Origin: Thiogranum sp.
Lineage (GTDB): Bacteria; Pseudomonadota; Gammaproteobacteria; DSM-19610
Assembly (NCBI GenBank): GCA_030148915.1
Contig: JASBSN010000017.1
Span: 1-64,000, forward strand
DNA length: 64,000 nt
Direction of reading: 5' to 3'
Positions within the stretch are counted from its first letter, which is position 1, and each line of letters opens with the position of its first letter. The notes beneath the pieces are model-generated. The model ran no database searches and was not told the DNA's origin. It saw only the letters and a program-made list of their open reading frames with translations. Positions 6,336 to 35,040 of the stretch are shown here, one piece after another. A program made the position numbers and the translations under genes.

Positions 6336-7229
6336 TCAGCGCAAGCCGTTATCGCGCTGGGCCTGACGCGATTCCTGCAACTTTTTCTTTAGCAGATTCA
6401 GGCCTTCGAGGTATGGCACCGTGCCGTTGGCGCGAATCACGTTGCGTCCTTCCGGGCTGTCGGTGTATTTTATGAAGTCCTTGACGATTTCCGCGTGCGG
6501 ACTTTTTGCATTGTAGGCCAGATACAAGGGCCGGTAGAGGAGATAGTTGCCCGTCTTGACGTTTTCGTAGCTGGGCGACTTGTCATTCAGATCAAGAATT
6601 TTTACTTTGCGCTTGCGCGCGCTGCTGACACCGGTGATGCTGATGGCGCTCGCATCCACCTCGATTTCCTGTTCCAGGGGTCCGGATGAGGGAAACAATC
6701 GGCTGGCGGCGAACTCCTGATCGTAATTGTCGAACAGCAGCTTGCGGGTGGTGCGCCCGACGCCCGATATTTTGCCTTCGCGGGCGAACAATTTGATCGG
6801 TCGATCGGCGCCGCCGACTTCTTTCCAGTTGCTGATTTCACCGAGATAGATCTTGCGCAGATCCTCGATGGAGATGTTGTCGACGGGATTATCCGGGTTC
6901 ACAATCACCACCAGCGCATCCCAGGCCACTGGAATCATGGTCACGCCTTTTTCTTCTTTGACGCCCCACATGTGGCGGCGGCAACTGCCGCCAATATCCG
7001 CGGTTTGCGTGGCCACCTCGCGAATGCCGCGCGTCGCCCCCCCTCCCTGAATATCGATCTTGACGCCGGTTTTGGCCGTATAAGCCTTGGCCAGCGACGA
7101 CATATAGGCCTTTTTTGAAATACCGCAGCCGACCCAGCGCAGGGTCACCGATTCGGCGGCCAGCAGCGGCTGTATGACCAGCGACAGTATCGCCAGCAGG
7201 GGCAGTGTGCATGTGATTCTGTTCACCAT
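6336..7229 (-). CDS. PstS-like phosphate-type periplasmic binding protein (orphan)
   Basis: A 297-residue exported class-II periplasmic binding protein. The signal peptide runs to about LAAES, then come WVGCG and a GGGATRGIRE anion-binding segment as in PstS-like proteins. The start chosen is the ATG at 7227-7229 because AAGGAG sits four bases upstream; an in-frame ATG ten codons earlier has no such site. No pstCAB, phoU or other transporter genes lie nearby, so it may feed a distant transporter or act in sensing. No convincing Pho box was found upstream. Phosphate is the best guess for the ligand; another oxyanion is possible. Confidence 0.82.
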   Translation of the reverse strand: MVNRITCTLPLLAILSLVIQPLLAAESVTLRWVGCGISKKAYMSSLAKAYTAKTGVKIDIQGGGATRGIREVATQTADIGGSCRRHMWGVKEEKGVTMIPVAWDALVVIVNPDNPVDNISIEDLRKIYLGEISNWKEVGGADRPIKLFAREGKISGVGRTTRKLLFDNYDQEFAASRLFPSSGPLEQEIEVDASAISITGVSSARKRKVKILDLNDKSPSYENVKTGNYLLYRPLYLAYNAKSPHAEIVKDFIKYTDSPEGRNVIRANGTVPYLEGLNLLKKKLQESRQAQRDNGLR

Positions 7230-7457
7230 CCATCTCCTTAAATTAAACCGTGCGCCCACTGCAAAAACCGCGACCGACGATATCCTGCGTGAAAGATCGG
7301 CCGGGCGCGCCGAACCTTTAAGGCGAGTAAGGCGATATGGAAAACCTCAAAGGGGGTGTACGCGGCGTCATCCCTGACCGGCAGAAGTAGCCGAAAACGC
7401 GCTAGGCATACGGCGGTTCCGTCCGCTGTGGTAAACTGCTCCGGTGGAAAGGGGCGA
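7230..7457. other. Divergent intergenic region between PstS-like and DUF454 genes
   Basis: This 228-bp stretch must hold promoters for both divergent genes. I looked for Pho-box half-sites on both strands and found none convincing, which is notable because the leftward gene is PstS-like. No small ORF with a ribosome site and no terminator-like hairpin was seen. Confidence 0.5.
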
Positions 7458-10345: not shown

Positions 10346-10407
10346 TCGCGGTGACCGCAACTGAATGCGAGGTGGAAAATTTTAGTATGATGTCCGAGGA
10401 GAGCCCC

Positions 10408-11100
10408 GTGGAGAAGATTATGCTGACGGACAAGCCGCGCTCGGTGCCGATACTCTACAGCTTCCGGCGTTGTCCCTACGCCATGCGCGCGCGTATGGGT
10501 CTGTATTATGGGGGGCACTGTGTAGAACTGCGCGAAGTCGATCTGGCGGCTATACCGCAGAGTCTGCGCGCACTGGTGCCGGATTCTCCCAGGGTGCCGG
10601 TGTTGCAGTTGAGCGACGGTCGGGTCCTGGACGAAAGCTGGGATATCCTGCTGTGGGCGGTGAGCAGCCATGATCCCGAGTGCTGGCTGGGCGAGGGCGG
10701 CGCCGATGTTCAAGCTGCCGAACGCTGGATCGAGATGAACGATTTTTCCTTTAAGAGCGATCTCGATCACTACAAATACGCAGCCCGTTATCCCGAATAC
10801 CCGGCCGAGCACTATCGCAGTGAAGGGGAAGTCTTTTTGCAGGATATCGAGACGCAGCTCGGCATCACGCGTTTTTTGTTGGGTGAACGCCCGAGCGTGG
10901 CCGATATCGGTGTCTTCCCCTTTGTGCGCCAGTTCGCCCATGTCGACCCGGCGTGGTTCGCGCAGACGCCCTATCCTTTATTACGGGCTTGGCTCGCCGG
11001 GCTGCTGGCCAGCCCGTTGTTCAACGCCGTTATGCACAAACACCCCGTGTGGCAGCCAGGTCAGCGGCCGCTTATAGTCGGGGCTGCTGCAGACACATGA
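10408..11100 (+). CDS. Glutathione S-transferase family protein
   Basis: An N-terminal thioredoxin-like fold carries the motif RRCPYAMRAR, placing Cys22 (numbered from this start) at the omega/beta-class active-site position. An all-alpha C-terminal domain follows, with FLLGERPSVADIGVFPFVRQF, the usual N-capping box region. A GTG start at 10408 is chosen for a GAGGAG site six bases upstream. ATGs at 10387 and 10390 in the same frame are alternatives that would add six or seven residues. Glutathione-dependent thiol transfer or dehalogenase activity is expected from the fold; the substrate is unknown. Confidence 0.88.
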   Translation: MEKIMLTDKPRSVPILYSFRRCPYAMRARMGLYYGGHCVELREVDLAAIPQSLRALVPDSPRVPVLQLSDGRVLDESWDILLWAVSSHDPECWLGEGGADVQAAERWIEMNDFSFKSDLDHYKYAARYPEYPAEHYRSEGEVFLQDIETQLGITRFLLGERPSVADIGVFPFVRQFAHVDPAWFAQTPYPLLRAWLAGLLASPLFNAVMHKHPVWQPGQRPLIVGAAADT

Positions 11101-11118
11101 CGACAGGGAGGAGGACAG

Positions 11119-11379
11119 ATGCAAGAAAAACGACAGCACCTGCGTACGGCTTTCGGGGCCGAAGTCACACTCACCCATCCTGCGTTGGGAGAACGCCGCG
11201 TCGCTATGCGCGATATGTCCGATGGCGGGATCTTTATCCTCATCGGTGATCAGAGCGGGCTGGAGATGGGTGACGTGGTCCAGGTTCAGGCGGTTGATCT
11301 GGAGGATGCACCGCTGCTCTCGGCGCGGGTAGTGCGCATTGAGTCGAGCGGTGTTGGACTGATGTTCATCGATCTGTGA
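11119..11379 (+). CDS. Single-domain PilZ protein, predicted c-di-GMP receptor
   Basis: An 86-residue protein consisting of one PilZ domain. The c-di-GMP signature is present as R5xxxR9 (KRQHLR) and D32MSDGG37, the expected [D/N]xSxxG. Start is ATG behind GGGAGGAGGACAG, a strong ribosome site. It lies 18 bases after the GST gene and ends just before the convergent selO gene. Binding of the second messenger is likely from the intact motif; the controlled process (motility, exopolysaccharide) is not indicated by neighbours. Confidence 0.9.
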   Translation: MQEKRQHLRTAFGAEVTLTHPALGERRVAMRDMSDGGIFILIGDQSGLEMGDVVQVQAVDLEDAPLLSARVVRIESSGVGLMFIDL

Positions 11380-20979: not shown

Positions 20980-21768
20980 ATGCGGGCTGAAGCACTGGTA
21001 AGCACCTGGTCGGTGCGGGGCATGGCGGATAGTGGGTTGCTGTTCACCACCGTGCTATCCGTTGCCTTGCACGCGCTGATGCTGGGGCAGTTTGCGCCCC
21101 CGTCAGCGGTGCCGCTATCGGCTTCCGGCGATGCCCGCCGTGGCGTATTGCAGGTCGCCGTCACGACCGGGTCCTCGGCATCCGCCAGACCGCCACCGAC
21201 CGCGAAACGCCGGTCCGCCGAACCCGCCACGCGCCACGCCGTTTTGGCCGGCCGGAAACCTTCTCATCCGTCGACGCGCAGTCAAGCCCAGGGGAACCTC
21301 CCAGCGTCAGTGTCCAGCCTTGAGCAGAGGGTACCGCCGCCGGCGGAATTGCCGCATCCGGCCGACCAGGGAATATCGGCAAGCCTCAATCCCGATCCTC
21401 CCCCGGGTGCCCGCGAAGCGCTGCCACCACGGAAAGCGGACACCTCGCCCACCGCCGGATCCACCCCAAGCGCTACCTCGGCTACTCACGCCGAACAACC
21501 GCAACCACTCGATTGGACGCCTAAATTCGCACCGCCCCCGGAGTACCCGGAAGAAGCGCGCTGGGAAGAGCGCGTCGGCTCGGTGGCGCTGGCATTCGCA
21601 ATCACGACCGACGGCGGCGTAGAGGGTGTGCGGGTGCTTGCATCATCCGGGCATCGCGATCTGGACCTGGCGGCGGTGCACGCCCTGCAGCGCTGGCGCT
21701 TCGATTCCGATCACCCTGTGGATCGCCTGCGCCGTTACAAATATACCTTTCACTTTCGATTGTACTGA
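20980..21768 (+). CDS. TonB-like energy transducer
   Basis: A 262-residue protein with one N-terminal transmembrane helix (about 19-38), a long Pro-rich periplasmic linker (about 40-180) and a C-terminal TonB domain. That domain contains the PPEYPEEARWEERVGSVALAF block and ends HALQRWRFDS...YTFHFRL. TonB couples inner-membrane proton motive force through ExbB/ExbD to outer-membrane receptors. No exbB or exbD gene is adjacent. A TonB-dependent receptor lies 3.4 kb downstream on the same strand, past one phosphoesterase gene, so it may serve that receptor. An internal ATG at residue 15 is an alternative start. Confidence 0.88.
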   Translation: MRAEALVSTWSVRGMADSGLLFTTVLSVALHALMLGQFAPPSAVPLSASGDARRGVLQVAVTTGSSASARPPPTAKRRSAEPATRHAVLAGRKPSHPSTRSQAQGNLPASVSSLEQRVPPPAELPHPADQGISASLNPDPPPGAREALPPRKADTSPTAGSTPSATSATHAEQPQPLDWTPKFAPPPEYPEEARWEERVGSVALAFAITTDGGVEGVRVLASSGHRDLDLAAVHALQRWRFDSDHPVDRLRRYKYTFHFRLY

Positions 21769-21848
21769 GCGCTTCGGGTTAAACCGGTAGCGTACGGCGG
21801 CCTGCTGACAGGTTTTCGAAAACTGCACCGCGTGGAGTCTTCGCGAAA

Positions 21849-21877
21849 CTGTCATCCTCTCTTCATCACGCGGTCAA
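21849..21877 (+). promoter_or_regulatory. Pho-box-like array upstream of the phosphoesterase gene
   Basis: Three heptamers spaced exactly 11 bp apart: CTGTCAT (21849, perfect match to the PhoB half-site), TCTTCAT (21860, 4 of 7) and CGGTCAA (21871, 5 of 7). A CATGAT hexamer (21891-21896), a plausible weak -10, follows 13 bp after the last unit, and the gene starts about 100 bp further on. PhoB boxes are known to be such 11-bp-phased repeats standing in for a -35. The adjoining genes encode phosphatases, which supports the call. Confidence 0.65.
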
Positions 21878-21994
21878 CTGCTCTGGAGAACATGATCACT
21901 CTGTTGGCAGGTGCCTGGCGCGCTACGAAACCCGGGGCTGGGGATCTCTCAGGGTATTCGTCCGGCCGGGCACCGATTCACTAGGGAGATAACG

Positions 21995-24900
21995 ATGAGT
22001 AAAAGCAGTACACCCAAGCGCTGCGTCTTGGCAGCGATGATCGCCGGGATTCTGGTGTCCGCGAGCAGCGGCTACGCCGGCGCGCCCGACAATTCGGCTC
22101 GCCCCCATGCGCGCGGCGTAAATGCAGCGCAAAGCGGAGAGATGCTACCCACCGGGATGCGCATCACCCCGACCGCCGCCCCCGGAGCCGTATTCGAGCA
22201 TCTCAACCCGGACCTGGCAGATAATCCGGATTATCTCGCCGATCATGCGGTGTCGACTGCGATCAGCCCGAACGGGGCGACCATGCTGGTGCTCACCAGT
22301 GGCTACAATCGAAACAATGGCGCTGATGGTTCGCGCATCGCCGAGCAGTCAAACGAATACGTTTTCGTGTATGACATCAGCCAAGGGCGACCGCAAAAGA
22401 CACAGGTATTGCAAGTAGCGAATACGTTTAACGGTATCGCGTGGAACGCCGAGGGCAGCGAATTCTATGTTTCCGGTGGCGTCGACGATAGCGTTCATAT
22501 ATACGCCAACCTTGGAGGTGTATGGCAGGCGACCGGCGAGATCGCTTTGGGTCACGCCGCCGGTGAAGGCTTGCGAGTCGGGCCGATGGCCGCCGGGGTG
22601 GCGGTCAATGCCAGCGGTACGCAGTTGTTGGCCGCCAATTTTGAAAACGATTCAGTCAGTCTGGTGGATCTGGAAACGCGCACCGTGCTCGCCGAGCAGG
22701 ATCTGCGTCCGGGGAAAATCGACCCGGCACTCAGTGGCACGCCGGGCGGTACTTATCCCTTTGCGGTGGCTTTCAAGGGCGATGATATCGCTTATGTGAG
22801 CAGCCAGCGCGACCGCGAGATCGATGTTATCAAGGTCGGCGATGGCGCGCTGTCTGTAATTGCACGCATCAAGGTCCAGGGTCAGCCCAATAAAATGATC
22901 CTGAACCGCGCACAGAATCGGCTCTACGTCGCCAGTGACAACGCCGACACCGTGGTGGTGATTGATACCGCCAGCAACCAGGTGGTCGAGAACATTGCGG
23001 TGCTGGCGCCGCGTGCTGTATTCCCGCACCCGGAAACCTTCAAGGGTGCCAACCCGAACAATCTGGCATTGTCGCCTGACCAGGGGACTTTGTTTGTCAG
23101 CAACGGTGGCGCTAACTCGGTAGCGGTGGTGCAACTCGCACAGGCCGCCGCTGCCAACGATGATCAAGAGCAGGGCGAGCGCGACGAAGATGACCGCGAA
23201 GACCGGCGCGACACCGAGAGCCGGGTTATCGGCCTGATCCCCACCGGCTGGTACCCCAACGCGGTGAGCGTGAGCGCCGATGGCACGATGCTGTATGTGG
23301 TTAACGGCAAGAGCAACGCCGGGCCCAACCCGCAAGGCTGCCGCGACACGGTTTCCATTGAGCCGGGAGCCCTCGACGAGTGTCGTGCCGCCAATCAGTA
23401 CGTCTGGCAACTGGAAAAGGCGGGGCTGCTGTCCCTGCCCATGCCCAGCGCCCGTCAGCTCGCTGCGATGACCTGGCAGGTTGCCTACAACAACCGTTTC
23501 CCGGTAGCTCAGGATCATCAGAAGTGGAAGTCCACCATGGCCTTCCTGCGCCAGCGCATCCAGCACGTGATATACGTCGTGAAAGAGAACCGCACCTACG
23601 ATCAGGTGCTCGGCGATCTGGAGCGTGGCAACGGCGACCCCAGTCTGGCTATCCTCGGGCCTTACAGCCCCAACCATCAACAGCTTGCCCGCCAGTTCGT
23701 GACGCTGGATAATTTCTACGACAGTGGCGAGACATCCAATACCGGCTGGAACTGGACCACCGCCGCGCGCAGCACGGACTTCACTGAAAAGACCGCCCCG
23801 GTGAACTACGCCGGTCGCGGCCTGACCTATGATTGGGAAGGCAACAACCGCAACATCAACGTCGGTCACGCCACGGTGGCCGAACGCCAGGCGGCCAATC
23901 CCTACAGCCCCGGTGATCCGGATATTCTGGCCGGTACGGCCGATGTTGCAGCTCCTGACTCGCCCGAGGGAGAGGCTGGTGCCGGCTATCTCTGGGATGC
24001 GGCGCTCAATGCCGGTCTGTCGGTGCGCAACTACGGATTTTACGGTGATCTCAGTCGCTATTTTCTGCCCGCCAGCGACCCGGCGTTCATCGCTCTGTCA
24101 CCCACCCCCCATGCCGACAACTCGGTGCAGTTCTTCCCGACCAAGCAGTCGTTGATGGAAGTCTCCGACCCGTATTTCCGCGGCTACGACCAGAAGTACG
24201 CCGATTACTGGCGTTTCAAGGAATGGGAGCGTGAGTTCGATCAGTACGCCGCCCGCGAAGAACTGCCCAACCTGAGCCTGGTGCGGATACCGCACGATCA
24301 CTTTGGCAGCTACTCCTCGGCGATGGATGGCGTCGGTACCGTGGAGACGCAAATGGCGGACAACGATTACGCCCTGGGACTGATCGTCGAAAAAGTCGCC
24401 AACAGCCCGTTCAAGGATAATACCCTCATCTTTGTCCTCGAAGACGACGCGCAGAACGGCGGCGATCACGTCGATCCGCACCGTTCCATCGGCTATATCG
24501 TCGGACCCTATGTCAAGCAGGATGCACTGATCTCCAAGCACTACACCACGGTGAGTATGCTGCGCACCCTGGAGGAAGTCCTGGGCATCGAGCCGATGGG
24601 TATCAATGACGGTCTCGCCGCGCCGATGGCGGAACTTTTCGATATCCGCCAAAAGAGCTGGGATTACACCGCCCTGGTACCGGAAGTGCTGTATTCGACC
24701 TCTCTGCCGCTGCCGCCGCGCAGTGAGGCTCAGGTGGCGAGCAGCGCCACGGCGGTTGACTGCGATTCCCAGTCCCGGCATACGCCCGCCTACTGGCAGC
24801 AGGCGATGGCGGGACAGGACTTCACTGCCGAGGACAAGTTGGATACGCCGAAATTCAACCAGGCACTGTGGGCCGGGCTCAAAGGTAAGGAGGTGCCGGC

Positions 24901-25009
24901 TCCGACTGTGCGTCATGGCGACGATCTGCGCCGGCAACGCCAACAGTTAATTGCCAAGGTGCGTGCTGAACGCGAGAAGGCCTGCTCGGTAAGGCTGACT
25001 CAGCGCTAA
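21995..25009 (+). CDS. Exported YncE-like propeller / phosphoesterase-domain protein
   Basis: A 1004-residue secreted protein. The signal peptide ends near SSGYAGA. An N-terminal seven-bladed YVTN/YncE-like propeller spans about 60-470, with repeats such as RLYVASDNADTVVVID. It is interrupted by a strongly acidic, charged stretch near 388-412 (DDQEQGERDEDDREDRRD). From about 515 there is a phosphoesterase/phospholipase C-like domain, with ENRTYDQ at 531-537 and EDDAQNGGDHVD at 816-827 supplying expected metal ligands. Start is ATG after AGGGAGATAACG. The upstream Pho-box-like array and the nearby PhoD gene suggest organic-phosphate hydrolysis under phosphate limitation. The actual substrate (phospholipid or phosphomonoester) is open. 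Confidence 0.87.
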   Translation: MSKSSTPKRCVLAAMIAGILVSASSGYAGAPDNSARPHARGVNAAQSGEMLPTGMRITPTAAPGAVFEHLNPDLADNPDYLADHAVSTAISPNGATMLVLTSGYNRNNGADGSRIAEQSNEYVFVYDISQGRPQKTQVLQVANTFNGIAWNAEGSEFYVSGGVDDSVHIYANLGGVWQATGEIALGHAAGEGLRVGPMAAGVAVNASGTQLLAANFENDSVSLVDLETRTVLAEQDLRPGKIDPALSGTPGGTYPFAVAFKGDDIAYVSSQRDREIDVIKVGDGALSVIARIKVQGQPNKMILNRAQNRLYVASDNADTVVVIDTASNQVVENIAVLAPRAVFPHPETFKGANPNNLALSPDQGTLFVSNGGANSVAVVQLAQAAAANDDQEQGERDEDDREDRRDTESRVIGLIPTGWYPNAVSVSADGTMLYVVNGKSNAGPNPQGCRDTVSIEPGALDECRAANQYVWQLEKAGLLSLPMPSARQLAAMTWQVAYNNRFPVAQDHQKWKSTMAFLRQRIQHVIYVVKENRTYDQVLGDLERGNGDPSLAILGPYSPNHQQLARQFVTLDNFYDSGETSNTGWNWTTAARSTDFTEKTAPVNYAGRGLTYDWEGNNRNINVGHATVAERQAANPYSPGDPDILAGTADVAAPDSPEGEAGAGYLWDAALNAGLSVRNYGFYGDLSRYFLPASDPAFIALSPTPHADNSVQFFPTKQSLMEVSDPYFRGYDQKYADYWRFKEWEREFDQYAAREELPNLSLVRIPHDHFGSYSSAMDGVGTVETQMADNDYALGLIVEKVANSPFKDNTLIFVLEDDAQNGGDHVDPHRSIGYIVGPYVKQDALISKHYTTVSMLRTLEEVLGIEPMGINDGLAAPMAELFDIRQKSWDYTALVPEVLYSTSLPLPPRSEAQVASSATAVDCDSQSRHTPAYWQQAMAGQDFTAEDKLDTPKFNQALWAGLKGKEVPAPTVRHGDDLRRQRQQLIAKVRAEREKACSVRLTQR

Positions 25010-25022
25010 CAGTGTAGCGCTA

Positions 25023-25056
25023 AACGCCGGAGGGCATGCCCTTCCGGCGTTTTTTT
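25023..25056 (+). terminator. Rho-independent terminator after the phosphoesterase gene
   Basis: AACGCCGGA pairs with TCCGGCGTT, extended by GGGC/GCCC around a short loop, and is followed by a run of T. It starts 14 bases after the stop codon. It separates the phosphoesterase transcript from the receptor gene. Confidence 0.92.
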
Positions 25057-25151
25057 ATTCCCTGATTTGTTTAACGCTGGCGCGCATGTGCGGGCGCGAA
25101 ATTTTCGTGTCGGTGGCAAATGTACGCGTGACTTGATTCGCGGAGGCGAAA

Positions 25152-27176
25152 GTGAATTGCAACAAGGTAGTGACGGTAATGGTTCTGTTGTGCGGGTCGT
25201 GGGCAGCCGAGGTTAGCGCACAGCCGGGTGACGCGCCGGCGGCGGAAATGGTGGTGACCGCTGCGCGAGTGGAGCGCGACGTCTTTGCGACCCCGCAAGC
25301 GGTGACCTTGATCACCGATCAGGAGGTGGAGCAGGCAAACGTCACCAGCACGCCGGATTTGTTCCGTTACGCCGAAGGCGTTTATATGCAAAAGACCAAC
25401 CTCGGAGGGGGCTCACCGTTTATGCGCGGGCTCACCGGCAAGCAGGTGCTGATCCTGGTCGACGGCGTGCGTCTGAATAATTCCTATTTCCGCTTTGGCC
25501 CCCATCAATATCTCAACACCGTCGACCCGGAACTGATCGAACGGATCGAAGTGGTTCGCGGACCGATGTCAGTGCTCTACGGCAGTGATGCGCTGGGCGG
25601 TACCATCAACATCATCACCCGCCGTCCCGACCCGACGCTGGCCGATGGCGCACTGGACGGTCTGGTGCATGCCTCCTACGATACCGCTGTCGACGGCGGC
25701 TCGGTCCGGGCGCAGATCGGTGGGCGGCGCGGCGACGCGGGGTTCCTGGCGGGAATTACCGCCAAGCGCCTGGATGACTTGAAAGGCGGCGGTAGCGTTG
25801 GGGCCCAGCGACCCAGTGGTTACGATGAATGGGACGCCGACCTGCAGAGCGACTGGCGGATCGATCGCCGCCACAGTGTACGCGTTGCCTTGCAGCACAC
25901 CGATCAGGACGCGGTGCCCAAGACCAGCGAAGTGACCCTCGGCAGCAAGCTCAAATACGATTATCAACCGCAGGAGCGAACACTGGCTTATTTGGAATAC
26001 AGCGGCAAAGACCTACAGCTGTTCGATGAGGTTACGGCGAGAGTTTCCTTTAGCCGCCAAAAGGAGGGCGAGCAAATCATAGCTCGCGCCACGCCCTCGC
26101 AGGAATCCGCAGAAGTGACTGACGTCGCCACCTGGGGCGCGTCGCTGCAGTTGGCAAACCGCTTGGGCAGTCGCCAGCGTTTCACTTATGGTTTCGAGTA
26201 CTACCGCGACGACTACAATACCCGCAAGCATCTGCTGGACCTCGGCAGCGGCGCCGTGACTCCGGTGGCGCCCGGCAGTCCGGACGGCGCACGCTATGAG
26301 ACCCTCGGTCTGTACCTGCAAGATGAATTGCGCCTGAGCCGCAAACTGGATCTGACCGGTGGTGTGCGCTGGAGTCGTATCGAGACCGACGGGCAGGTGG
26401 GCGATCAGCGTCTGAGTCTGGCGGTTGACCAGCTTACCGGCAGCCTCAACGGCCTCTACCGCCTCGCCCCGCACTTAAACCTGGTCGGTGGAGTGGCGCA
26501 AGGCTTTCGTGCGCCCAATATGGAGGACTTTTTCGGCCGGGTGGATTTTTACAGCGAGATTCCCAATACACAGCTTAAGCCCGAAGAGTCGTTCAGCCAG
26601 GAGATCGGGTTGAAATATTACACCCGGGCCACCACGGCGGACCTGTATCTTTACCAGAGCGACTACGATGGCTTGATCGAACGGGTTACGGTCGGCACCC
26701 GGCCGGACGGCCAACCGATCAAGCAGCGGCGCAATATCCGCAACGCCAGAATTCGCGGCGTGGAAGCCGGTGCCAGCCATCGCATCAGCCGGCACTGGCT
26801 GATGGCCGGCACCTTGATGTGGACCCGCGGAGAGGATCGCGACACCGGTGCGCCGCTGCGGCGTATACCGCCTCTGAACGGCACGCTGCGGCTGCGTTAT
26901 GACTACAATGCGCGCCTCTGGACCGAGCTGGGTACAGTATTGGCTGCTCGGCAGGACCGTCTGTCCAACGGTGACATCGACGATCCCCGCATTCCCGACG
27001 GCGGCACCCCCGGTTACGCCGTTTATCATATCAAGGCAGGCTGGCATCCCACGCGTCATCAGCAGTGGCTGGTGACTTTGGAGAACTTGGCAGACAAACG
27101 CTACAAGACCCACGGCTCCGGCCTGTACGCCCCCGGACGCAGTCTGGTAGTGTCATACCGGCTGGATTTGGAATAG
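25152..27176 (+). CDS. TonB-dependent outer-membrane receptor
   Basis: A 674-residue receptor. The signal peptide ends near EVSAQ. A TonB-box-like EMVVTA lies at 32-37, a plug domain with FMRGLTGKQVLILVDGVRLNN and VVRGPMSVLYGSDALGG follows, then a 22-strand barrel ending in an aromatic-rich strand. The start is GTG at 25152 behind CGGAGGCGAAA. The plug resembles haem/haemoglobin and siderophore receptors. Position between two phosphatase genes suggests uptake of a phosphate-related compound, or a metal used by the phosphatases, but the ligand cannot be deduced. Confidence 0.9.
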   Translation: MNCNKVVTVMVLLCGSWAAEVSAQPGDAPAAEMVVTAARVERDVFATPQAVTLITDQEVEQANVTSTPDLFRYAEGVYMQKTNLGGGSPFMRGLTGKQVLILVDGVRLNNSYFRFGPHQYLNTVDPELIERIEVVRGPMSVLYGSDALGGTINIITRRPDPTLADGALDGLVHASYDTAVDGGSVRAQIGGRRGDAGFLAGITAKRLDDLKGGGSVGAQRPSGYDEWDADLQSDWRIDRRHSVRVALQHTDQDAVPKTSEVTLGSKLKYDYQPQERTLAYLEYSGKDLQLFDEVTARVSFSRQKEGEQIIARATPSQESAEVTDVATWGASLQLANRLGSRQRFTYGFEYYRDDYNTRKHLLDLGSGAVTPVAPGSPDGARYETLGLYLQDELRLSRKLDLTGGVRWSRIETDGQVGDQRLSLAVDQLTGSLNGLYRLAPHLNLVGGVAQGFRAPNMEDFFGRVDFYSEIPNTQLKPEESFSQEIGLKYYTRATTADLYLYQSDYDGLIERVTVGTRPDGQPIKQRRNIRNARIRGVEAGASHRISRHWLMAGTLMWTRGEDRDTGAPLRRIPPLNGTLRLRYDYNARLWTELGTVLAARQDRLSNGDIDDPRIPDGGTPGYAVYHIKAGWHPTRHQQWLVTLENLADKRYKTHGSGLYAPGRSLVVSYRLDLE

Positions 27177-27297
27177 AGCCAAGAGGCGGTGCGAGCATGC
27201 CATCGCCGAGCTCCGGCCGCCGTCATCTTCAGGTAATGCTGATCAGCTAGCCTACCGTCTTGGTAACTTGCATTACAGGCTAAATCCAGGGGGTGGC

Positions 27298-29049
27298 ATG
27301 AAGCGTCGTCAGTTTTTACAGACCGGTCTCGGCTCGGTGGCCGCTTGGATGGTCAGTAGGCAGGCGAGTGGGGCTTGGTTGGATGCCGAGGCTGCGGTAG
27401 AGGTCTCGGCGACATACAGTAATCCGGTAACGTTTATCGAGCCCGAAGGGGCGGAGAATCTGTACGCGGATGATTTCGAAACCGATTCGGAACTGGACCC
27501 CACGGCAGTCTTTACGCTAGGCGTAGCCGCGGGCGACCCTCGAGCGAACGGTATCGTCCTCTGGACGCGCGTCGATCCGGCAGCGATTGCTGACCCATCG
27601 CACCCCGCTGCGCTGGGATTGGAGATCGCCACCAACCTCCAATTTACCGCCGCTTCAGTGCTGATACGCGCCACAGCGAAACTCTCGGCGCAGAGCGACT
27701 ATACAGCGAAGCTTCCTATCGCCGCCCCCGTGCTGGGTGCCGGGCAAACGTATTATTATCGGTTCATCTATAATCAATGTGCCAGCCGCACAGGACGTTT
27801 CAACACACTTCCCGCCGCCGATAGTCTCCCTGACAGTATTCAGCTGGCCTATCTGTCGTGTCAGGACTATTCCAATGGCTACTACACGGCGCTGGCGCAT
27901 CTTGCGGATGAAGATGTCGATTATCTGGTGTTCCTTGGAGACTATATTTACGAGACTGTCAGCGATCCCAGCTTTCAGAATCAGCAGGTTCGCAGTGTGC
28001 CGCCGCTACCCAGCGGCGCCAGCGTAGCGGCCGGGCTGGAAGATTATCGCCATCTTTATCGAGTCTACAGATCGGACCCAAACCTGCAGCGCTTGCATGA
28101 GCGTTTTGCGTTTATACAAATTTGGGATGATCACGAATTTGCCAACGACGGCTGGCAGGACTACCACCCCGACAACAACCCAACACCTGATCAGCCTACC
28201 CCTGTCCTGCGCCAGGCGGCCACCCAAGCTTGGGTGGAATACGGCCTCGCGGACGTGCCCTATGAATCGACCTCGTCGCCCATCGACGCGGTGCGGAACT
28301 ACCGCAGCTTTGCGTTTGGCCGGTTGTTTGATTTGATCGTTACTGACCAACGGCTCTACCGCGATGGACCGCCGTGTGGCAATGACACGACGGACCGCTA
28401 TTTCACACAACGCTGTGCGGCTGCCGAAAGCACCGCCCGGACCATGCTCGGCGCTACTCAGCGCGACTGGTTGATGAATTCGCTGCGCGACAGCGAAGCG
28501 GTGTGGAAGTTGTGGGCCAACGAAGTGACCTTGATGCAGATGCGTGTGGCGACGCAGTTTGTCACCCTGGATCAGTGGGACGGCTTTCCGGCCGAACGAG
28601 CCAGCATTCTGAGTAACGCAGAGCAAGCCGGCGTCAAGAATCTGGTGGCAATAACCGGCGACATCCACAGTTTCATCGCCGGGTACTTGCAAACCGATTA
28701 CGATTTGCCGACTCTCCCGGTCGGTGTAGAGCTGGTGGTGGGCTCGGTGAGTTCCGCTAATTTTCAGGAACTTGTTACCTCCCAGGTGCCCTTACCCAAT
28801 GCCCCGGTACCTCTGCCGCCTTATTTACCCGCAGGGCTCGGCGTCGAGGGCGCCCTCATTGCCTCGAATCCTCACATGGTCTATTTCAATTCATCTGCTC
28901 ACGGTTATTGCCTGCTAAAAATTACGCCGGACACGCTGGTATGTACTATGAAGGCGGTGGATACGATACGCCAACCGACCGGGACCAGTGTGCGTACGCT
29001 ACGGCAATTTCTTGTCGAGCAGGATCAAATCGTCCTGCATACACTCTGA
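27298..29049 (+). CDS. phoD: PhoD-family alkaline phosphatase, Tat-exported
   Basis: A 583-residue extracytoplasmic phosphodiesterase/phosphomonoesterase of the PhoD type, usually Fe/Ca-dependent. The twin-arginine signal begins MKRRQFLQTG. The N-terminal domain has TLGVAAGDPRANGIVLWTRV (73-92). Metal-site motifs are SCQD (187-190), GDYIYE (214-219), DDHE (277-280) and ITGDIHSF. The start at 27298 is supported by GGGGGTGG upstream and the Tat motif. A weak Pho-like pair (CCGTCAT at 27220, then AGGTAAT 11 bp on) lies upstream. It closes the phosphate-related gene group. Confidence 0.92.
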   Translation: MKRRQFLQTGLGSVAAWMVSRQASGAWLDAEAAVEVSATYSNPVTFIEPEGAENLYADDFETDSELDPTAVFTLGVAAGDPRANGIVLWTRVDPAAIADPSHPAALGLEIATNLQFTAASVLIRATAKLSAQSDYTAKLPIAAPVLGAGQTYYYRFIYNQCASRTGRFNTLPAADSLPDSIQLAYLSCQDYSNGYYTALAHLADEDVDYLVFLGDYIYETVSDPSFQNQQVRSVPPLPSGASVAAGLEDYRHLYRVYRSDPNLQRLHERFAFIQIWDDHEFANDGWQDYHPDNNPTPDQPTPVLRQAATQAWVEYGLADVPYESTSSPIDAVRNYRSFAFGRLFDLIVTDQRLYRDGPPCGNDTTDRYFTQRCAAAESTARTMLGATQRDWLMNSLRDSEAVWKLWANEVTLMQMRVATQFVTLDQWDGFPAERASILSNAEQAGVKNLVAITGDIHSFIAGYLQTDYDLPTLPVGVELVVGSVSSANFQELVTSQVPLPNAPVPLPPYLPAGLGVEGALIASNPHMVYFNSSAHGYCLLKITPDTLVCTMKAVDTIRQPTGTSVRTLRQFLVEQDQIVLHTL

Positions 29050-29147: not shown

Positions 29148-29849
29148 TTATGGCAAAGCGGACGACGAGCTACCCAGTTGGGTCAGTACCTTGTCCATAA
29201 TCGCTTCGGCCTGACTGAAGCCGTAAAGAGACATGGGCTTTTCGATCGCGCCCTGCAGCCCGACAGGATGATATTGCGTATCGGCTTTTTTCCCGACACG
29301 CATGTACGCCAGCAGCTGGCGGATCTGATCGGCGCTAAAGCCGGTGGCGGCCGGGGCGCTAATCGCCAAATGGTCGTCGACGCGCAGCAGGAGTTGCGAA
29401 TCCGCGCGGTGATTTTCGCCGATGGCCAGTTTCACTGCGCCGTCGCTGCCTTTTTGCACGCGCAAGTCGCCCTTGCTGAGGGTGCAGTGATACCGGCCGG
29501 TGCCGGCCTGCGGACAGCGCAGCCGCCAGTTGCTGCGCGCATCGGGGTTCCACGGCTGCTCGTCGCGGTTGCCCTGGATCACGGCGCTGCCGTCGGCGTA
29601 CTGCACTTGATAGGCGACACCGTCCAGTGTTCCCTGTTCGAATCTCGCCAGTACGTTCAAACGATTTTCGGGGTCTGGCAGGAATTTGCAACCGACGTGG
29701 CCTCCGGGCTCGATGGCCTGCTGGATGCGTTCGACCGAGCGCGCCTCTTTCCAGCCGCTGTTATAGTGTTCGCGATCGGTCTGCGTGCATTCGTTTGCGG
29801 CGTTGGCGCCGCTGCTGGCCAGCAGGGCGGTGCAAAGCAGTAATTTCAT
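29148..29849 (-). CDS. Exported protein of unknown function
   Basis: A 233-residue protein with a clear signal peptide (MKLLLCTALLASSGANA) and cysteines near the mature N-terminus and centre that could form disulfides. I do not recognise a family. The mature part reads as a small beta-rich domain followed by a C-terminal helical segment with FSADQIRQLLAYMRVG. The start is taken at the signal peptide; the upstream in-frame extension looks non-coding. It is the last gene of the minus-strand run, 148 bp downstream of bufC, so co-expression with the bufferin genes is possible but unproven. Confidence 0.7.
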   Translation of the reverse strand: MKLLLCTALLASSGANAANECTQTDREHYNSGWKEARSVERIQQAIEPGGHVGCKFLPDPENRLNVLARFEQGTLDGVAYQVQYADGSAVIQGNRDEQPWNPDARSNWRLRCPQAGTGRYHCTLSKGDLRVQKGSDGAVKLAIGENHRADSQLLLRVDDHLAISAPAATGFSADQIRQLLAYMRVGKKADTQYHPVGLQGAIEKPMSLYGFSQAEAIMDKVLTQLGSSSSALP

Positions 29850-29997
29850 CGTCTGTCCCTGGAAGATCCGCAACGCGTATAAGTGTACACGGCTGGCGCA
29901 TCGCCGAAAGTGGTTGGCGGCGAATTTTTTTCCGCCACTTCGTAACGCTGTCGGTAACATCGACTCGGTTTGTCGTAGCGCGGATGCCCGAGGCTAT

Positions 29998-30777
29998 TCA
30001 ATCGCTTCGCAGCGCGGTCACCAGGCCGGCATTGACCCAGCCTTTCAGTAACCCGGCGGCGTGCGCGGGTACCCGTTCGGGCTCCAGCCACTCGCACAGC
30101 CCTTCACAGAGTTCGCTGAAGCTTGCGGCGTTGCGCCAGGCGTCGAGCGCCCAGCGCTCGTCGACACTCAGTGAACGCCAATGAATGTCCAGGTTCTGGC
30201 GCCACAGCAGCCAGCTCTGGGTCGGTGCGCCGCAGTGGCGTTCGCACGGTTCGTCCCCGTCTTCCAATGCCTGCCAGATGGCGGGCACATTGCACGACAG
30301 ATCGAGGCGGCGCAGCGACGGGTGGGCCTGGAGGCGCAGCTGCGGCCAGGATTCGGGCGCGATGGCGGCTAAGGCGGCCGGGCCGAGGGCGGTGGCGTCG
30401 GGTGCATCAAAGACTTCGCCCTGCGCCCACTCGAAGGCGGCCATTTCGCTCAGCAGCGGCTGCCCGGACCAGGGCGGCGTGGCGGCCAGAAAGGCCGCCA
30501 TGTGCCGGCCCAGCCAGCGCAGCGAAGGGTGTCGCGAGGGATGCGCGGCGATATAGCTGTGGCCCAGCGATTCGAACTGCGCCTCGCCGAGGAGAATGGC
30601 CAGCTTGGTGTAGTCGCCTGCCAGCGCTTCCAGCAGGCGCAAGCGGTACGCCTGGGCGTAGATGTCGATGCGACACTCGGCACTGGCTGTTGCGGTGTTC
30701 ACCACCTGCGCGACGAAATGCGCCGGGTCGTCGAGGACGGCGGCCTGGAAATCCTCTTGCAGGGTGCGCAGGGCCAT
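29998..30777 (-). CDS. bufC: BufC/HvfC-type RiPP maturation partner (DUF2063)
   Basis: A 259-residue protein with the N-terminal DUF2063 domain (about residues 5-95: LQEDFQAAVLDDP, RIDIYAQAYRLRLLEALAGDYTKLAILLG) and a variable C-terminal domain. DUF2063 proteins pair with DUF692 enzymes and are thought to help present the precursor peptide; the Pfam label 'putative DNA-binding' is not supported by this context. Its ATG overlaps the bufB stop (TGATG), showing translational coupling. Full length for the family. Confidence 0.9.
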   Translation of the reverse strand: MALRTLQEDFQAAVLDDPAHFVAQVVNTATASAECRIDIYAQAYRLRLLEALAGDYTKLAILLGEAQFESLGHSYIAAHPSRHPSLRWLGRHMAAFLAATPPWSGQPLLSEMAAFEWAQGEVFDAPDATALGPAALAAIAPESWPQLRLQAHPSLRRLDLSCNVPAIWQALEDGDEPCERHCGAPTQSWLLWRQNLDIHWRSLSVDERWALDAWRNAASFSELCEGLCEWLEPERVPAHAAGLLKGWVNAGLVTALRSD

Positions 30778-31631
30778 CAGGCGGCAGGGGCCTTCAGGAT
30801 CGGCGCGGCAATGCGCCGCGCCTGCTCCAGTTCGTCCAACAATTCGCTCAGCGGCGGAATATTGTCATCGCGTTCAATCATGGTCGAGACGGCGCCGAAA
30901 CGGCGTACTGCCGCGGCATACAACGCCCACACCGGGTCGATTACCGGTTGGTCATGGGTGTCAACAATAATGTTGCCCTGGTGCGTATGTCCGGCGAGAT
31001 GAAATTGCATGACCCGCTGCGGCGCCACGGCGTGCAGATAATCGAGCGGATCGAACTGGTGGTTGTGGCTACTTACATAAATATTATTGATGTCGAGCAG
31101 GATCAGACAATCGGCCTGTTCCGCCACTGAATCGAGGAACTCCCACTCGGGCATCTCCGAACTTTGATAGGTCAAGTAGCTGGAGACATTCTCCAGCAGA
31201 ATCTGTCGACCGAGGTAATCCTGGACCTGTCTGACCCGCTCGGCGACGTGGCGCACGGCCGCCTCGGTGTAGGGCAACGGCAGCAGATCGTGCAGGTTTT
31301 GCCCCTTGACCCCGGTCCAGCACAGGTGGTCGGACACCCATTGCGGTTCCACGCGTTCGATCAGAGTCTTCAATTCGCGCAGATAGTCGGCGTTGAGGGG
31401 GTCGGTGCCGCCGATCGACAGCGAAACGCCGTGCATCGCCATGGGGTAGTCGAGGCGAATGCGGTCGAGGAAATGCAGCGGTTTGCCACCGCCGACCATA
31501 TAATTTTCGCTAAGAATCTCGAACCAATCGACCGCCGGGCGTTGCTCCAGCACGCTGTGGTAGTGGTCGGTCCTGAGTCCCAGCCCGAAGCCGAGAAACG
31601 GGCGCTGGGGAATCGGTCTAGTGTCCGGCAT
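30777..31631 (-). CDS. bufB: MNIO-family bufferin maturase BufB (DUF692/UPF0276)
   Basis: A 284-residue TIM-barrel enzyme of the multinuclear non-haem iron oxidase family. It is expected to convert precursor cysteines into copper-binding heterocycles (oxazolone/thioamide or thiooxazole in studied relatives). Conserved metal-ligand segments are [44 protein letters not shown] and [17 protein letters not shown]. The start is the ATG at 31629-31631. A GTG 11 codons upstream (31664) lies inside a perfect stem-loop and is unlikely. The order bufA-bufB-bufC is that of known bufferin operons. Confidence 0.93.
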
Positions 31632-31656
31632 GCGGGCATCCGTCAACAAGGTTATG

Positions 31657-31682
31657 ACCGGCACCCCTCATGGGGTGCCGGT
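31657..31682 (-). promoter_or_regulatory. Perfect 11-bp stem-loop between bufA and bufB
   Basis: An inverted repeat with arms ACCGGCACCCC and GGGGTGCCGGT around a TCAT loop, with no mismatch. It begins 29 bases after the bufA stop and ends 25 bases before the bufB start. No T run follows on either strand, so it is not a classic terminator. A 3'-end protector or processing barrier that keeps bufA mRNA in excess over bufBC mRNA is the likeliest role (inference). Confidence 0.75.
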
Positions 31683-31711
31683 ACCTTTAGGCATGTTGAA
31701 AGCTGTTCGCG

Positions 31712-31972
31712 CTACTTTCCGCTTTCGAACTTACCACCGAGTTGATTGCAGGTGGACTTGTCCACGGCGACGAAGCCCTTGCCTTTGCAGGAGTTCTGAC
31801 CCTTGCACTTGTTCTCGGCCGAGGCGCAGCTGCTCTTGCCTTTACAGGCGTTGACGCCGACGCAATGGCCCTGGGTGGAACTACCCGCCGAGGCCATCAT
31901 GGGGGTGGCGGCAAACATGGCCGCGGCGGCTGTCGCCAAGGCAACGCCGGTGAGTTTGTTTGCAGTTCTCAT
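31712..31972 (-). CDS. bufA: Bufferin-type metallophore precursor peptide (BufA-like)
   Basis: An 86-residue exported peptide. The signal peptide runs to about A29 (MRTANKLTGVALATAAAAMF...MMASA). The mature part holds six Cys (37, 43, 49, 56, 62, 75) in two related blocks, NACKGKSSC and NSCKGKG, rich in Lys, Gly and Ser. This cysteine-rich periplasmic peptide next to DUF692 and DUF2063 genes is the layout of bufferins, copper-binding RiPPs. The CKGxxxC repeat differs from the more familiar DUF2282 (GKNDC) type, so it may belong to the BufA2-like group. AAGGAG precedes the ATG. The modified residues cannot be told from sequence. Confidence 0.88.
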   Translation of the reverse strand: MRTANKLTGVALATAAAAMFAATPMMASAGSSTQGHCVGVNACKGKSSCASAENKCKGQNSCKGKGFVAVDKSTCNQLGGKFESGK

Positions 31973-32039: not shown

Positions 32040-32708
32040 TCACTCGGCGCGTTGGATGACGACCTTGGCCACCGGGTTGCGCCAATCACGCTCGGCCGGC
32101 ACTAAATCGCCTATACCGTGAATACCGGAATGGATATGCACGAAACCTTCTCCTCCTGTTCCCGGCGAACCGCCGGTGCCCTGACATACAGGGCCCGGAA
32201 TTGAGACACACAATTCGTCGTTAGGTTCGCTGCCGGCGTCATAGGCCGGGGCATAAAATGTTCTCACGGCGTGTCCGCGCGGCAGAGCGACGTTCTGCAG
32301 CGCCACAAAAGCGTCGTTGGTCGGGATCAGCATTGCCGCCAGTGATAGACGGCTGCGTCCGGGGAGCGCCCGAATGGTGAGGCTGACGGTATGGCCGGGA
32401 TCGAGCAGGCCGGAGGACGTGCCGGTGGCCTGCACCCGTGGATCAGCATCCAGAAGCGTCTGCAGCGCAGCGGTGTCGCCGCCTTCGGCCAGGGCGGCCA
32501 GCGCGGTGCTGGCGGCATCGCCGGCGGCAAACAACAGCGCCGGCGCGTAGCTGTGGCTGGTCAGCAGCAACGGGGTAAAACTTTCGCCGGCGGTTAGATT
32601 GGTGATGGTCACCTGATAGGTCCGGCCTTGGTTGTCGTCGGCCGTGGCGGCGGCGGCAGCGCTCGCCAGGACGGATGCAAAGAGCAACGAGATGAGTCTG
32701 GTGGACAT
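32040..32708 (-). CDS. Exported spondin-N domain protein
   Basis: A 222-residue secreted protein. The signal peptide ends near AAATADD. The rest is one Spondin_N-like beta-sandwich domain, recognisable from YQVTITNLTAGESFTPLLL at the start, the TNDAFVALQNVALP block and the end HIHSGIHGIGDL...DWRNPVAKVVIQ. H191, H193 and H197 form a possible metal site. Start is ATG behind AAGGAGGAGAATC, a very strong ribosome site. It lies 67 bp upstream of bufA on the same strand, so the bufferin genes probably share its transcript. The biological role of bacterial spondin-domain proteins is not established. Confidence 0.85.
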   Translation of the reverse strand: MSTRLISLLFASVLASAAAAATADDNQGRTYQVTITNLTAGESFTPLLLTSHSYAPALLFAAGDAASTALAALAEGGDTAALQTLLDADPRVQATGTSSGLLDPGHTVSLTIRALPGRSRLSLAAMLIPTNDAFVALQNVALPRGHAVRTFYAPAYDAGSEPNDELCVSIPGPVCQGTGGSPGTGGEGFVHIHSGIHGIGDLVPAERDWRNPVAKVVIQRAE

Positions 32709-32749
32709 GTGATTCTCCTCCTTTGGAGATTTCGCGATTACCGAGCAGT

Positions 32750-32763
32750 CAGTCATCTGACTG
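32750..32763 (-). promoter_or_regulatory. Inverted repeat upstream of the spondin gene (site 1)
   Basis: CAGTCA-TC-TGACTG, a perfect 6-bp inverted repeat 41 bp upstream of the spondin start codon. Another CAGTCA precedes it directly, giving CAGTCAGTCA. It is placed where an operator for the adjacent response regulator could act. Binding is inferred from position only. Confidence 0.45.
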
Positions 32764-32784
32764 TGGCCTAGCATGCCCCGGTGG

Positions 32785-32797
32785 TTTCACGGTGAAA
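32785..32797 (-). promoter_or_regulatory. Inverted repeat upstream of the spondin gene (site 2)
   Basis: TTTCAC-G-GTGAAA, a perfect 6-bp inverted repeat 76 bp upstream of the spondin start and 40 bp past the histidine kinase stop. It is a second candidate operator. Its half-site differs from that of the first repeat, so the two need not bind the same protein. Confidence 0.42.
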
Positions 32798-32837
32798 TCC
32801 CGAAAAGATCACATTTTTGTCCCATTGTCGCTTGTGC

Positions 32838-34340
32838 TCAGGCGCTGGCCGGCAGGCAGAAATCAAAGCAGGTTCCGGTTTGCGGCGTGCTGTCCACGGC
32901 AATTGGGCTGGCGTGCAGATCGAGAATACGCTTGGCGATGGCCAGCCCCAGACCGATCCCGCTGCCCGCTTCGCCCTGGCTTTTCTTCACCTGATAAAAG
33001 CGATCGAAGACGTGCGCCAGTTCCTCGGCCGGTATGCCGCAACCGGTGTCCGCCACCCGCACCCAGACCTGGCCGTCTTCGACCGTCAGGGTAACCGCCA
33101 CCCGGCCGCCCTCCGGCGTATGGCGTATGGCGTTGTCGAGCAAATTTTCCAACACCCGTTCGATTAAGCCGATATCGGCGTTTACAAACGGCAGGTCGGG
33201 CGGAATGTCGGTGTCGATGCGCACCCCTTGTTCGCTGGCCGCCAGCCGGTACTTGAGCGCTACGTCCTGCACCAGTTCGCCCGGGGCGAAGGCTTCACGG
33301 TGCAACTCGGCGTGTCCGGAGTCGAGCTTGGCCAGCTCGAACAGTTCGGCCACCAATGTACCCAGGCGCTGGCTGTGACGCAGCGCGATCTGCAGGTACT
33401 GGCGGTGTTCCTCGGCGCTCAGGGTATCGGCTTTCATTAGCAGCGTTTCCAGATACCCCTGCAGGGAGGCGATCGGCGTGCGCAGATCGTGCGAGACGTT
33501 GGCCACCAACTCTCGGCGCAAGGCATCGGTTTGCGTCAGCGCACCCACCTGCGCGGTCATGCGTTCGGCCATGCGGGTGAAGGTACGCCCGAGCCGACCG
33601 AGCTCGTCACGCGAGCCGGTGTCGATCTGCTGCAACGGTGGCAGCCGGGCGAAATCGGCGGCTTCGAACGCGGTCATGGCGCGATCCAGGCGTTGCAGCC
33701 GCCGGGTGAGCCGGCGCAACAGCCACAGGGCGCCGATCACACCGGCCAGTGCCGCGCCACCGAGGATGTACAAGGCCAGGCGCAGGACGTAACTTTGCTG
33801 CAGCATGGCCGCGATCGAGTTCCGTTGTTCACCGGCCAGCACCACATACAGGTAACCCTCGGGGTGTGCGGGCGCGCCGACGGGGGCGGCGGAAAACACC
33901 TCGCGCGCGCTGAGATGGCGCGGATCGTCGCCAACGATCGGTGTGCGCCCGCCGCCCTGCAGGAAGGTGCGTATCGGTGCCAGGTCGATCCGCTTGCGCT
34001 TGACTTTTCCGGGTGGCGCCGAGAACGCAAGAATGCGTCCCTGGTCGTCCAGCAAATAGACCTCGATGCTGGGGTTGATGATCATGTAGGTGTGAAAAAT
34101 GGGTTCCAGCGCACCGGGGTCGAAGCGCCCGTCTTGCACCTGCAGGCGGTTCTCGGCGATCAGGTTGGCCGCCAGTGTCCGGTTCAGCTGCTGATTGAGC
34201 TCCTGCAGGTACAGCCGGCCCGCCTGCAAGGTGATCAGCAGATATAGGCCGCCCAGCAAAGTCACCAGTAGCACCAGGCCGAGTGCCAGACGCGTGTAGA
34301 GGCTGTGCAGGGAGTGTTGCCGTGGCGCGAGCTCAGGCAT
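32838..34340 (-). CDS. Two-component sensor histidine kinase
   Basis: A 500-residue inner-membrane kinase. TM1 lies at about 16-38, a periplasmic sensor region of about 145 residues follows, TM2 lies at about 184-208, then a HAMP domain. The H-box NVSHDLRTP has phospho-acceptor H284, the N-box is ENLLDNAIRHT (N403), G1 is DTGCGIP (431-437) and G2 is GSGIGLGLAI. The start at 34340 overlaps the response regulator stop by 8 bp; the longer open frame upstream is the regulator's shadow. The sensor region has no Met- or His-rich copper motif, so the signal is unknown. It precedes the spondin-bufferin genes. Confidence 0.93.
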   Translation of the reverse strand: MPELAPRQHSLHSLYTRLALGLVLLVTLLGGLYLLITLQAGRLYLQELNQQLNRTLAANLIAENRLQVQDGRFDPGALEPIFHTYMIINPSIEVYLLDDQGRILAFSAPPGKVKRKRIDLAPIRTFLQGGGRTPIVGDDPRHLSAREVFSAAPVGAPAHPEGYLYVVLAGEQRNSIAAMLQQSYVLRLALYILGGAALAGVIGALWLLRRLTRRLQRLDRAMTAFEAADFARLPPLQQIDTGSRDELGRLGRTFTRMAERMTAQVGALTQTDALRRELVANVSHDLRTPIASLQGYLETLLMKADTLSAEEHRQYLQIALRHSQRLGTLVAELFELAKLDSGHAELHREAFAPGELVQDVALKYRLAASEQGVRIDTDIPPDLPFVNADIGLIERVLENLLDNAIRHTPEGGRVAVTLTVEDGQVWVRVADTGCGIPAEELAHVFDRFYQVKKSQGEAGSGIGLGLAIAKRILDLHASPIAVDSTPQTGTCFDFCLPASA

Positions 34341-35040
34341 CCCGGTGCTCGGCGAATTTGTAACCGATGCCCCAGACGGTGAGGATATAGTGCGGTTGCG
34401 CCGGTTGTTGTTCGATTTTGGCGCGCAGGCGGTTGATGTGCGAGTTGACGGTGTGTTCGTAACCGTCATGGCCGTAGCCCCAGACCAGATCCAACAGTTG
34501 GGCGCGGCTGTAGACCCGCCCCGGATGCCGGGCGAAATGCAGCAACAGGTCGAACTCCCGCCCGGTGAGGTGCACTTCACGGTCCTCGAGCAGCACGCGC
34601 CGGCGCGAGGTGTCGATGGTCAGCGCCCCGAGATGCAGCGGCTCATCGGTCTCGGCGCCCGGTTCGGTCATTGCCTCGGCGCGCCGGAACAGCGCTTTGA
34701 CCCGCGCCAGCAGTTCGCGGATGCTGAACGGTTTAGTGACATAATCATCGGCCCCGACTTCCAGGCCCAGCACCCGGTCGAACTCGGTGGACTTGGCGGT
34801 CAGCATCAGAATCGGCAGGTAATCCGGCCGGGCGCGCAGGCGCCGGCAGATCTCCAGACCGTCCAGACCCGGCAGCATCAGGTCCAGAATGACCAGGTCG
34901 GCCTGGGTGTCGGCGAGCCGCTGCAGCGCGCTGTTGCCGTCGCCGGCTTGCAGCACCTCATAGCCGGCGTCGCGCAAATGCAGGCTCAGCAGTTGCGCCA
35001 GGTCCAGGTTGTCTTCCACCACCAGAATGCGGCGTGTCAC
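34333..35040 (-). CDS. OmpR/PhoB-family response regulator
   Basis: A 235-residue regulator. In the receiver domain the phospho-acceptor is D53 (LVILDLMLP), with T81 and K103 as the other conserved residues. The C-terminal winged helix runs from about 135 to 230 (LTGREFDLLLHFARHPGRVYSRAQLLDLVWGYG, then TVNSHINRLRAKIE). It overlaps its kinase gene. Orientation and adjacency suggest the spondin-bufA-bufB-bufC genes downstream as a possible target set. It is not recognisable as CusR, CopR or PhoB from these motifs alone. Confidence 0.93.
   Translation of the reverse strand: MTRRILVVEDNLDLAQLLSLHLRDAGYEVLQAGDGNSALQRLADTQADLVILDLMLPGLDGLEICRRLRARPDYLPILMLTAKSTEFDRVLGLEVGADDYVTKPFSIRELLARVKALFRRAEAMTEPGAETDEPLHLGALTIDTSRRRVLLEDREVHLTGREFDLLLHFARHPGRVYSRAQLLDLVWGYGHDGYEHTVNSHINRLRAKIEQQPAQPHYILTVWGIGYKFAEHRDA

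Follow-up and report, generated by a model that had tools for sequence, protein, structure and literature searches.

The locus examined here raises the question of why a TonB-dependent receptor should be encoded between two phosphatases, and whether it serves the acquisition of phosphorus or of something else. It lies on contig JASBSN010000017.1 of assembly GCA_030148915.1, from Thiogranum sp. (Gammaproteobacteria, DSM-19610), of which we analysed positions 1 to 64,000 on the forward strand, a 64,000-base stretch that we refer to as the window. A preliminary description had placed four genes here in one direction, and open reading frames together with Pfam and NCBIfam searches confirm it: a tonB-like gene, a propeller-phosphoesterase, a TonB-dependent receptor and PhoD all lie on the plus strand, at the coordinates given in Table 1. 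While the genes themselves are real, the starts of the phosphoesterase and of PhoD had been listed too far upstream; the likely start of the former is the ATG at 21995, which has an AGGGAG-type site ahead of it, and that of the latter is the ATG at 27300, where the Tat signal MKRRQFLQ begins. The TonB-family protein is a possible dedicated energiser.

Table 1 Features of the phosphoesterase-receptor locus, in window coordinates
Feature	Position	Strand	Evidence
TonB-family protein, 262 aa, TonB_C at residues 185-261	20980..21768	+	PF03544 57.9 bits, cut-off 24.6
Tandem PhoB-box-like array, four 11-bp units TCTTCGCGAAA-CTGTCATCCTC-TCTTCATCACG-CGGTCAACTGC	21838..21881	+	matrix score
Exported 1004-aa protein (Sec signal) with a YncE-like seven-bladed propeller and a fused PF04185 phosphoesterase domain	21995..25009	+	Pfam/NCBIfam, model
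Intrinsic terminator in the phosphoesterase/receptor gap	25022..25058	+	stem 25022-25052, 13 pairs, 8 GC, T-run
TonB-dependent receptor, 674 aa, TonB box near EMVVTA	25152..27176	+	plug 99.1 bits, barrel 177.8 bits
PhoD-family phosphatase with Tat signal	27300..29049	+	PF09423 301.8 bits, PhoD_N 66.8 bits

The phosphoesterase combines YVTN/YncE propeller repeats with a PF04185 domain that scores 27.6 bits against a gathering score of 23. In an AlphaFold model built with 25 homologues (mean pLDDT 82.6), residues 63-483 superimpose on E. coli YncE with Z 34.0 and 2.8 Å over 315 residues, and other seven-bladed propellers score nearly equal to YncE against this N-terminal half. All fold-search matches of the whole model were taken by the propeller half, which masked the C-terminal domain. 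The residues E531, N532, S581, D768, H769, D817, D818, D824 and H825 (numbered from ATG 21995) are unchanged in the 25 homologues; they are of metal-binding or catalytic type, and E531, N532, S581, D817, D818, D824 and H825 may correspond to the metal and nucleophile residues of AcpA. Among solved structures, sequence comparison gave one plausible relative, the phospholipase C 8k3g, a weak match that spans the ENR and D..DH motifs. One alignment scan of genome contigs returned several hundred relatives, the family being annotated as 'bifunctional YncE family protein/alkaline phosphatase family protein', and our literature search, in a limited collection, found no study of its function. E. coli YncE, which adjoins the TonB-dependent receptor YncD/PqqU, resembles the present case in that a YncE-type propeller stands beside such a receptor, but differs in that it carries no phosphoesterase domain.

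The region upstream of this gene provides the link to phosphate. With a matrix for seven bases of each unit, based on what is generally known of PhoB boxes, we found that the array in Table 1 has the top three- and four-unit scores on both strands of the window (21.5 and 21.6 bits), as compared to 18.5 and 16.5 bits, respectively, for the best control spacing, and that it is exceptional with respect to 4000 random 460-base windows (p=0.0002). The genome encodes a PhoB above the TIGR02154 cut-off, adjoining phoR and pstS-like genes on a different contig from the window, and this contig served as a positive control: the array just before pstS ranks first there with 22.6 bits over three units, a strength that the phosphoesterase array nearly matches, and the array before phoB is the third-best three-unit match by the same matrix. 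Among the 54 homologues that share 40% identity or more, a spacing of 11 gives the highest mean score of the spacings 8-14, and 11 of them carry arrays at p<0.01, as opposed to none of the 28 homologues below 40%. The arrays before the homologues in the loci L067, L068, L069 and L083 reach three-unit p values of 0.0027 to 0.0082, although the arrays in homologues are not all independent, since L067 and L068 are close relatives. Searching the genome for a strict KTCA pattern of three units gave 8 matches, as against 3 for its reversed form, and the bare pattern is therefore not decisive by itself. The array is likely a promoter element of the phosphoesterase gene, as judged from the sequence.

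In the same matrix scan of the window neither tonB nor the receptor is preceded by a Pho array, and PhoD has no more than a weak half-site upstream; a PhoB box upstream, taken here as a sequence sign of the Pho regulon, was found for the phosphoesterase alone. A further Pho-box-like pair, CGTTCATCGCT-CTGTCACCCAC, lies at 24084-24112 (+) within the phosphoesterase gene; intragenic PhoB sites occur in E. coli (PMC10294691). Elsewhere in the window, at 6336-7259 (-), a solute-binding protein of the PstS family (140 bits to TIGR02136, under the cut-off) is encoded on its own, with no adjacent Pst permease genes.

The preliminary description had called the genes an island. They are indeed co-directional, but a reading as one operon did not survive: a strong terminator hairpin follows the phosphoesterase stop, and with no Pho box before the receptor we rejected a single operon. 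Hairpins stand in the matching position in L108 (12951-12978) and, reading the sequence by eye, in L084 and L067. The terminator between the genes therefore makes the enzyme and the receptor neighbours with separate dosage, and the receptor would be expressed either by partial read-through or from a promoter not found in the sequence.

Besides the window, the phosphoesterase-receptor pair occurs in identical order and strand in five loci: L067 and L068, which are MAGs from a different family within the class, and L083 (Methylocaldum sp. 14B), L108 (a Thiobacillus MAG) and L084 (a Pyrinomonadaceae MAG), which came from the genome-contig scan with the phosphoesterase alignment. In L067 and L068 the receptor is about 60% and the phosphoesterase 62-64% identical to that of the window. 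Receptor orthologues beside phosphoesterase genes are generally 54-60% identical, and the receptor of L084 only 32%. The gene order in L108 is TonB, phosphoesterase, receptor and a second propeller-phosphoesterase, whose gene shares 4 bases with that of the receptor; the TonB of L108, directly upstream of the phosphoesterase, is 34% identical to that of the window. In L083 the order is phosphoesterase, second propeller-phosphoesterase, receptor. L070, which holds a 44% homologue, has receptor-ExbB-ExbD-phosphoesterase-receptor on one strand, and L069 and L122, with phosphoesterases of at least 58% identity, have no receptor nearby. The link between receptor and phosphoesterase that had been proposed at the outset is thus supported by a gene order kept in several lineages. 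Within 38 related genomes no phosphoesterase relative was found at E<=1e-20, and the receptors and PhoDs there are only distant; the set is therefore either recent to the species or lost elsewhere.

Three observations on these loci may be added. The receptor gene of L068 is interrupted (9232-11338), its pieces lying in two frames, either as a pseudogene or through an assembly error; relatives carry intact copies. The second propeller-phosphoesterase in the receptor modules of L108 (15098-17692) and L083 (13228-15783) is 851-864 aa long and matches PF04185 more strongly. The homologue in L069 (8693-11707) has a Pho array and no adjacent receptor, and may be a lipoprotein, since it starts with a lipobox-like LLAGC.

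PhoD was placed in its family by PF09423, PhoD_N and the active-site motifs of B. subtilis PhoD (2yeq), with which it aligns at SCQ-Y, LGDYIYE, WDDHE and GD-H; the two share family and motifs but are distant in sequence. Against the NCBIfam equivalog AlkPhosPhoDBac it scores 259.9 bits, below 1000, which places it in the PhoD family and outside the narrow equivalog. Its grouping with the receptor, whose conservation the preliminary description had suggested as a check, was not borne out: no PhoD was found near the paired phosphoesterase-receptor loci, and among the loci examined it adjoins the receptor in the window alone. Orthologues 52-63% identical lie at other loci, those in L181, L182 and L184 with no receptor nearby and that in L183 with a distant TonB-dependent receptor about 6 kb off, and we therefore rejected the idea that PhoD and the receptor are fixed partners. 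It is best seen as a putative local addition beside a conserved receptor-phosphoesterase unit, a further exported phosphatase; where the window has PhoD, L108 and L083 carry the second propeller-phosphoesterase as an extra enzyme. In L182 a Pho box stands just upstream of PhoD, beside a divergent gene resembling a 5'-nucleotidase, and in L184 one stands within about 0.6 kb of PhoD. The phosphate role given in the preliminary description thus draws support from these boxes before PhoD relatives as well as from the phosphoesterase array and its pstS control. L184 has two strong Pho-box pairs, at 6870 and 8606; one precedes an MFS-like transporter, the other separates this gene from PhoD, and transporter and PhoD are a possible organophosphate operon.

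An exported enzyme that is probably induced by phosphate starvation, together with a gate that recurs beside it in unrelated bacteria, makes the pair look like a kit for organic phosphorus. On balance, we lean towards a phosphate-starvation module for organic phosphorus, with a PhoB-induced phosphoesterase and a receptor that imports a phosphoester or a complex of it. At low phosphate, PhoB would bind the array observed at 21838-21881 and switch on the exported propeller-phosphoesterase. The receptor, with TonB, would bring into the periplasm a phosphorylated compound, or a metal complex of it, that may be too large or too scarce for porins. There the phosphoesterase would free phosphate, as PhoD, after Tat export, probably also would, and the freed phosphate would be taken up by the Pst system, whose genes lie outside this locus, in another part of the genome. 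Against this count the missing Pho box before the receptor and tonB, the weak half-site before PhoD, the terminator, the haem-type solved relatives of the receptor, and the fact that PhoD is not a conserved neighbour.

A more specific form of this idea, which we advance tentatively and think somewhat less probable than its opposite, is that of a proteobacterial system dedicated to phosphoester uptake, where one receptor and one TonB would have the propeller-phosphoesterase as their cognate enzyme under PhoB control, the propeller possibly docking the enzyme to receptor or substrate, as a non-SusCD counterpart, across phyla, of the Flavobacterium PUS loci. In Flavobacterium johnsoniae these loci combine PusCD with a periplasmic PDE/PME, and their induction by phosphate starvation has been measured (PMC8115612, 2020). 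The window shares with them an outer-membrane TonB receptor beside secreted phosphatases and a tie to phosphate starvation, here from the Pho array, but it has a single proteobacterial receptor known from sequence, in contrast to a SusC/SusD-type system of Bacteroidetes with measured induction; no SusD gene lies beside the receptor, whose immediate neighbours are the phosphoesterase and PhoD. In Xanthomonas, the TonB-dependent transporter XanT is likewise encoded with a phosphoester-cleaving enzyme, the phosphodiesterase XanP, which cleaves an imported sugar phosphodiester (PMC12807533, 2025). Unlike the window enzyme, however, XanP is a 2H-phosphoesterase, and its substrate, which a bacterial enzyme produces inside the plant, is described as serving nutrition, not phosphate starvation (PMC12807533). 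Furthermore, Sphingobium has a phosphotriesterase that binds the Ton complex (PMC7142613), and a TonB receptor is paired with a phosphate-starvation lipoprotein in Caulobacter (PMC2996285). Given these precedents, and that of the acidophiles discussed below, the kind of system is already known, and what is specific and testable is the pairing. The PhoB boxes and TonB-dependent import give the propeller-phosphoesterase family a testable role, and suggest a further way in which Proteobacteria may take up organic phosphorus.

The main alternative is metal import: the receptor would take up iron, haem or a calcium chelate, needed by the phosphatases or set free as metal-phosphate or metal-phytate complexes are cleaved, so that phosphate and iron uptake would be coupled. 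PhoD enzymes use iron and calcium, which counts in its favour, as does the sequence alignment of the receptor, in which the nearest solved relatives are the haem receptors PhuR and ShuA. Its score of 292.4 bits against the haem-receptor model TIGR01785 is substantial but below the cut-off of 316.85. The plug histidine (GPHQY) aligns with the ShuA histidine and is kept in close orthologues, whereas the loop histidine between the FRAP and NPNL-like motifs is absent from the window receptor (FRAPNMEDFFGRVDFYSEIPNTQLKPE) and from L067, L083 and L108, four close orthologues; the receptor of L076 has both. At the position that we take to be the tyrosine ligand of PhuR, the aligned residue in the window receptor appears to be Phe, and as haem-ligand criterion we used histidine alone, not this tyrosine. 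The plug and loop histidines (His461-type, in the FRAP-NPNL loop) are features linked to haem binding (PMC6449446). The best Fur match before the receptor is 9/19, not above the shuffled background, and Fur control was accordingly rejected. A structure model of the receptor, based on four sequences and with pLDDT 47, was too poor and was left out, and the score against the PqqU model is 51.8 bits (cut-off 1200).

Metal import also has a precedent in acidophiles, where clusters of FecA3, ExbBD-TonB, surface layer protein (SLP) and PhoD in Acidithiobacillus, and of FecA9, ExbBD-TonB, PhoB and SLP in Leptospirillum, were interpreted as phosphate-assisted ferric iron uptake under Fur (PMC2631029, 2008). 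The window resembles them in receptor, TonB machinery and PhoD, and, comparing by name alone, four ingredients would be shared if SLP is a YVTN/YncE propeller, as is hinted by a PDB match, 1l0q, titled 'surface layer protein'. It differs in lacking ExbBD beside its TonB, in carrying a Pho-box array and in that no Fur box was found. The preliminary description had named membership of a haem or siderophore clade, together with a response to iron and not to phosphate, as the outcome that would speak against a phosphate role. The nearest relatives by sequence do point that way, while the sub-threshold score, the missing loop histidine and the lack of a Fur box point away from it; the receptor resembles the haem-receptor side of the superfamily and, given these three features, is probably not a classical haem receptor. 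We regard metal import as unlikely, though the strongest of the alternatives to a phosphate-starvation module.

That the receptor is an ordinary iron-type receptor, next to the phosphatases by accident, would agree with the haem-receptor-like sequence, the terminator and the lack of evidence for a shared promoter, but the pair keeps its order and strand across six genomes, which span several families and phyla, against 8 receptor matches in the 3.2 Mb genome of the window, and this conserved pairing largely refutes it and leaves it very improbable. It is scarcely credible that the receptor belongs instead to a copper bufferin cluster at 29998-31972, whose MNIO bufferin genes are found on the opposite strand at a distance of no more than 3 kb, given the convergent orientation, 81.9 bits against the copper-receptor model TIGR01778 (cut-off 472.45) and, from gene lists inspected by eye, orthologous receptors without recognised bufferin neighbours.

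The bufferin cluster (-) comprises a Cys-rich precursor at 31712-31972 (VGVNACKGKSSC...), an MNIO maturase BufB above cut-off at 30777-31664 and a BufC/HvfC-like protein at 29998-30777, and an exported protein of unrecognised family lies at 29148-29960. Further along, 32040-35040 (-) encodes a spondin-domain protein, a histidine kinase and a PhoB/MtrA-like response regulator. This regulator (34333-35040) was rejected as PhoB, being below the TIGR02154 cut-off while the true PhoB lies on another contig, and possibly regulates the bufferin or spondin genes.
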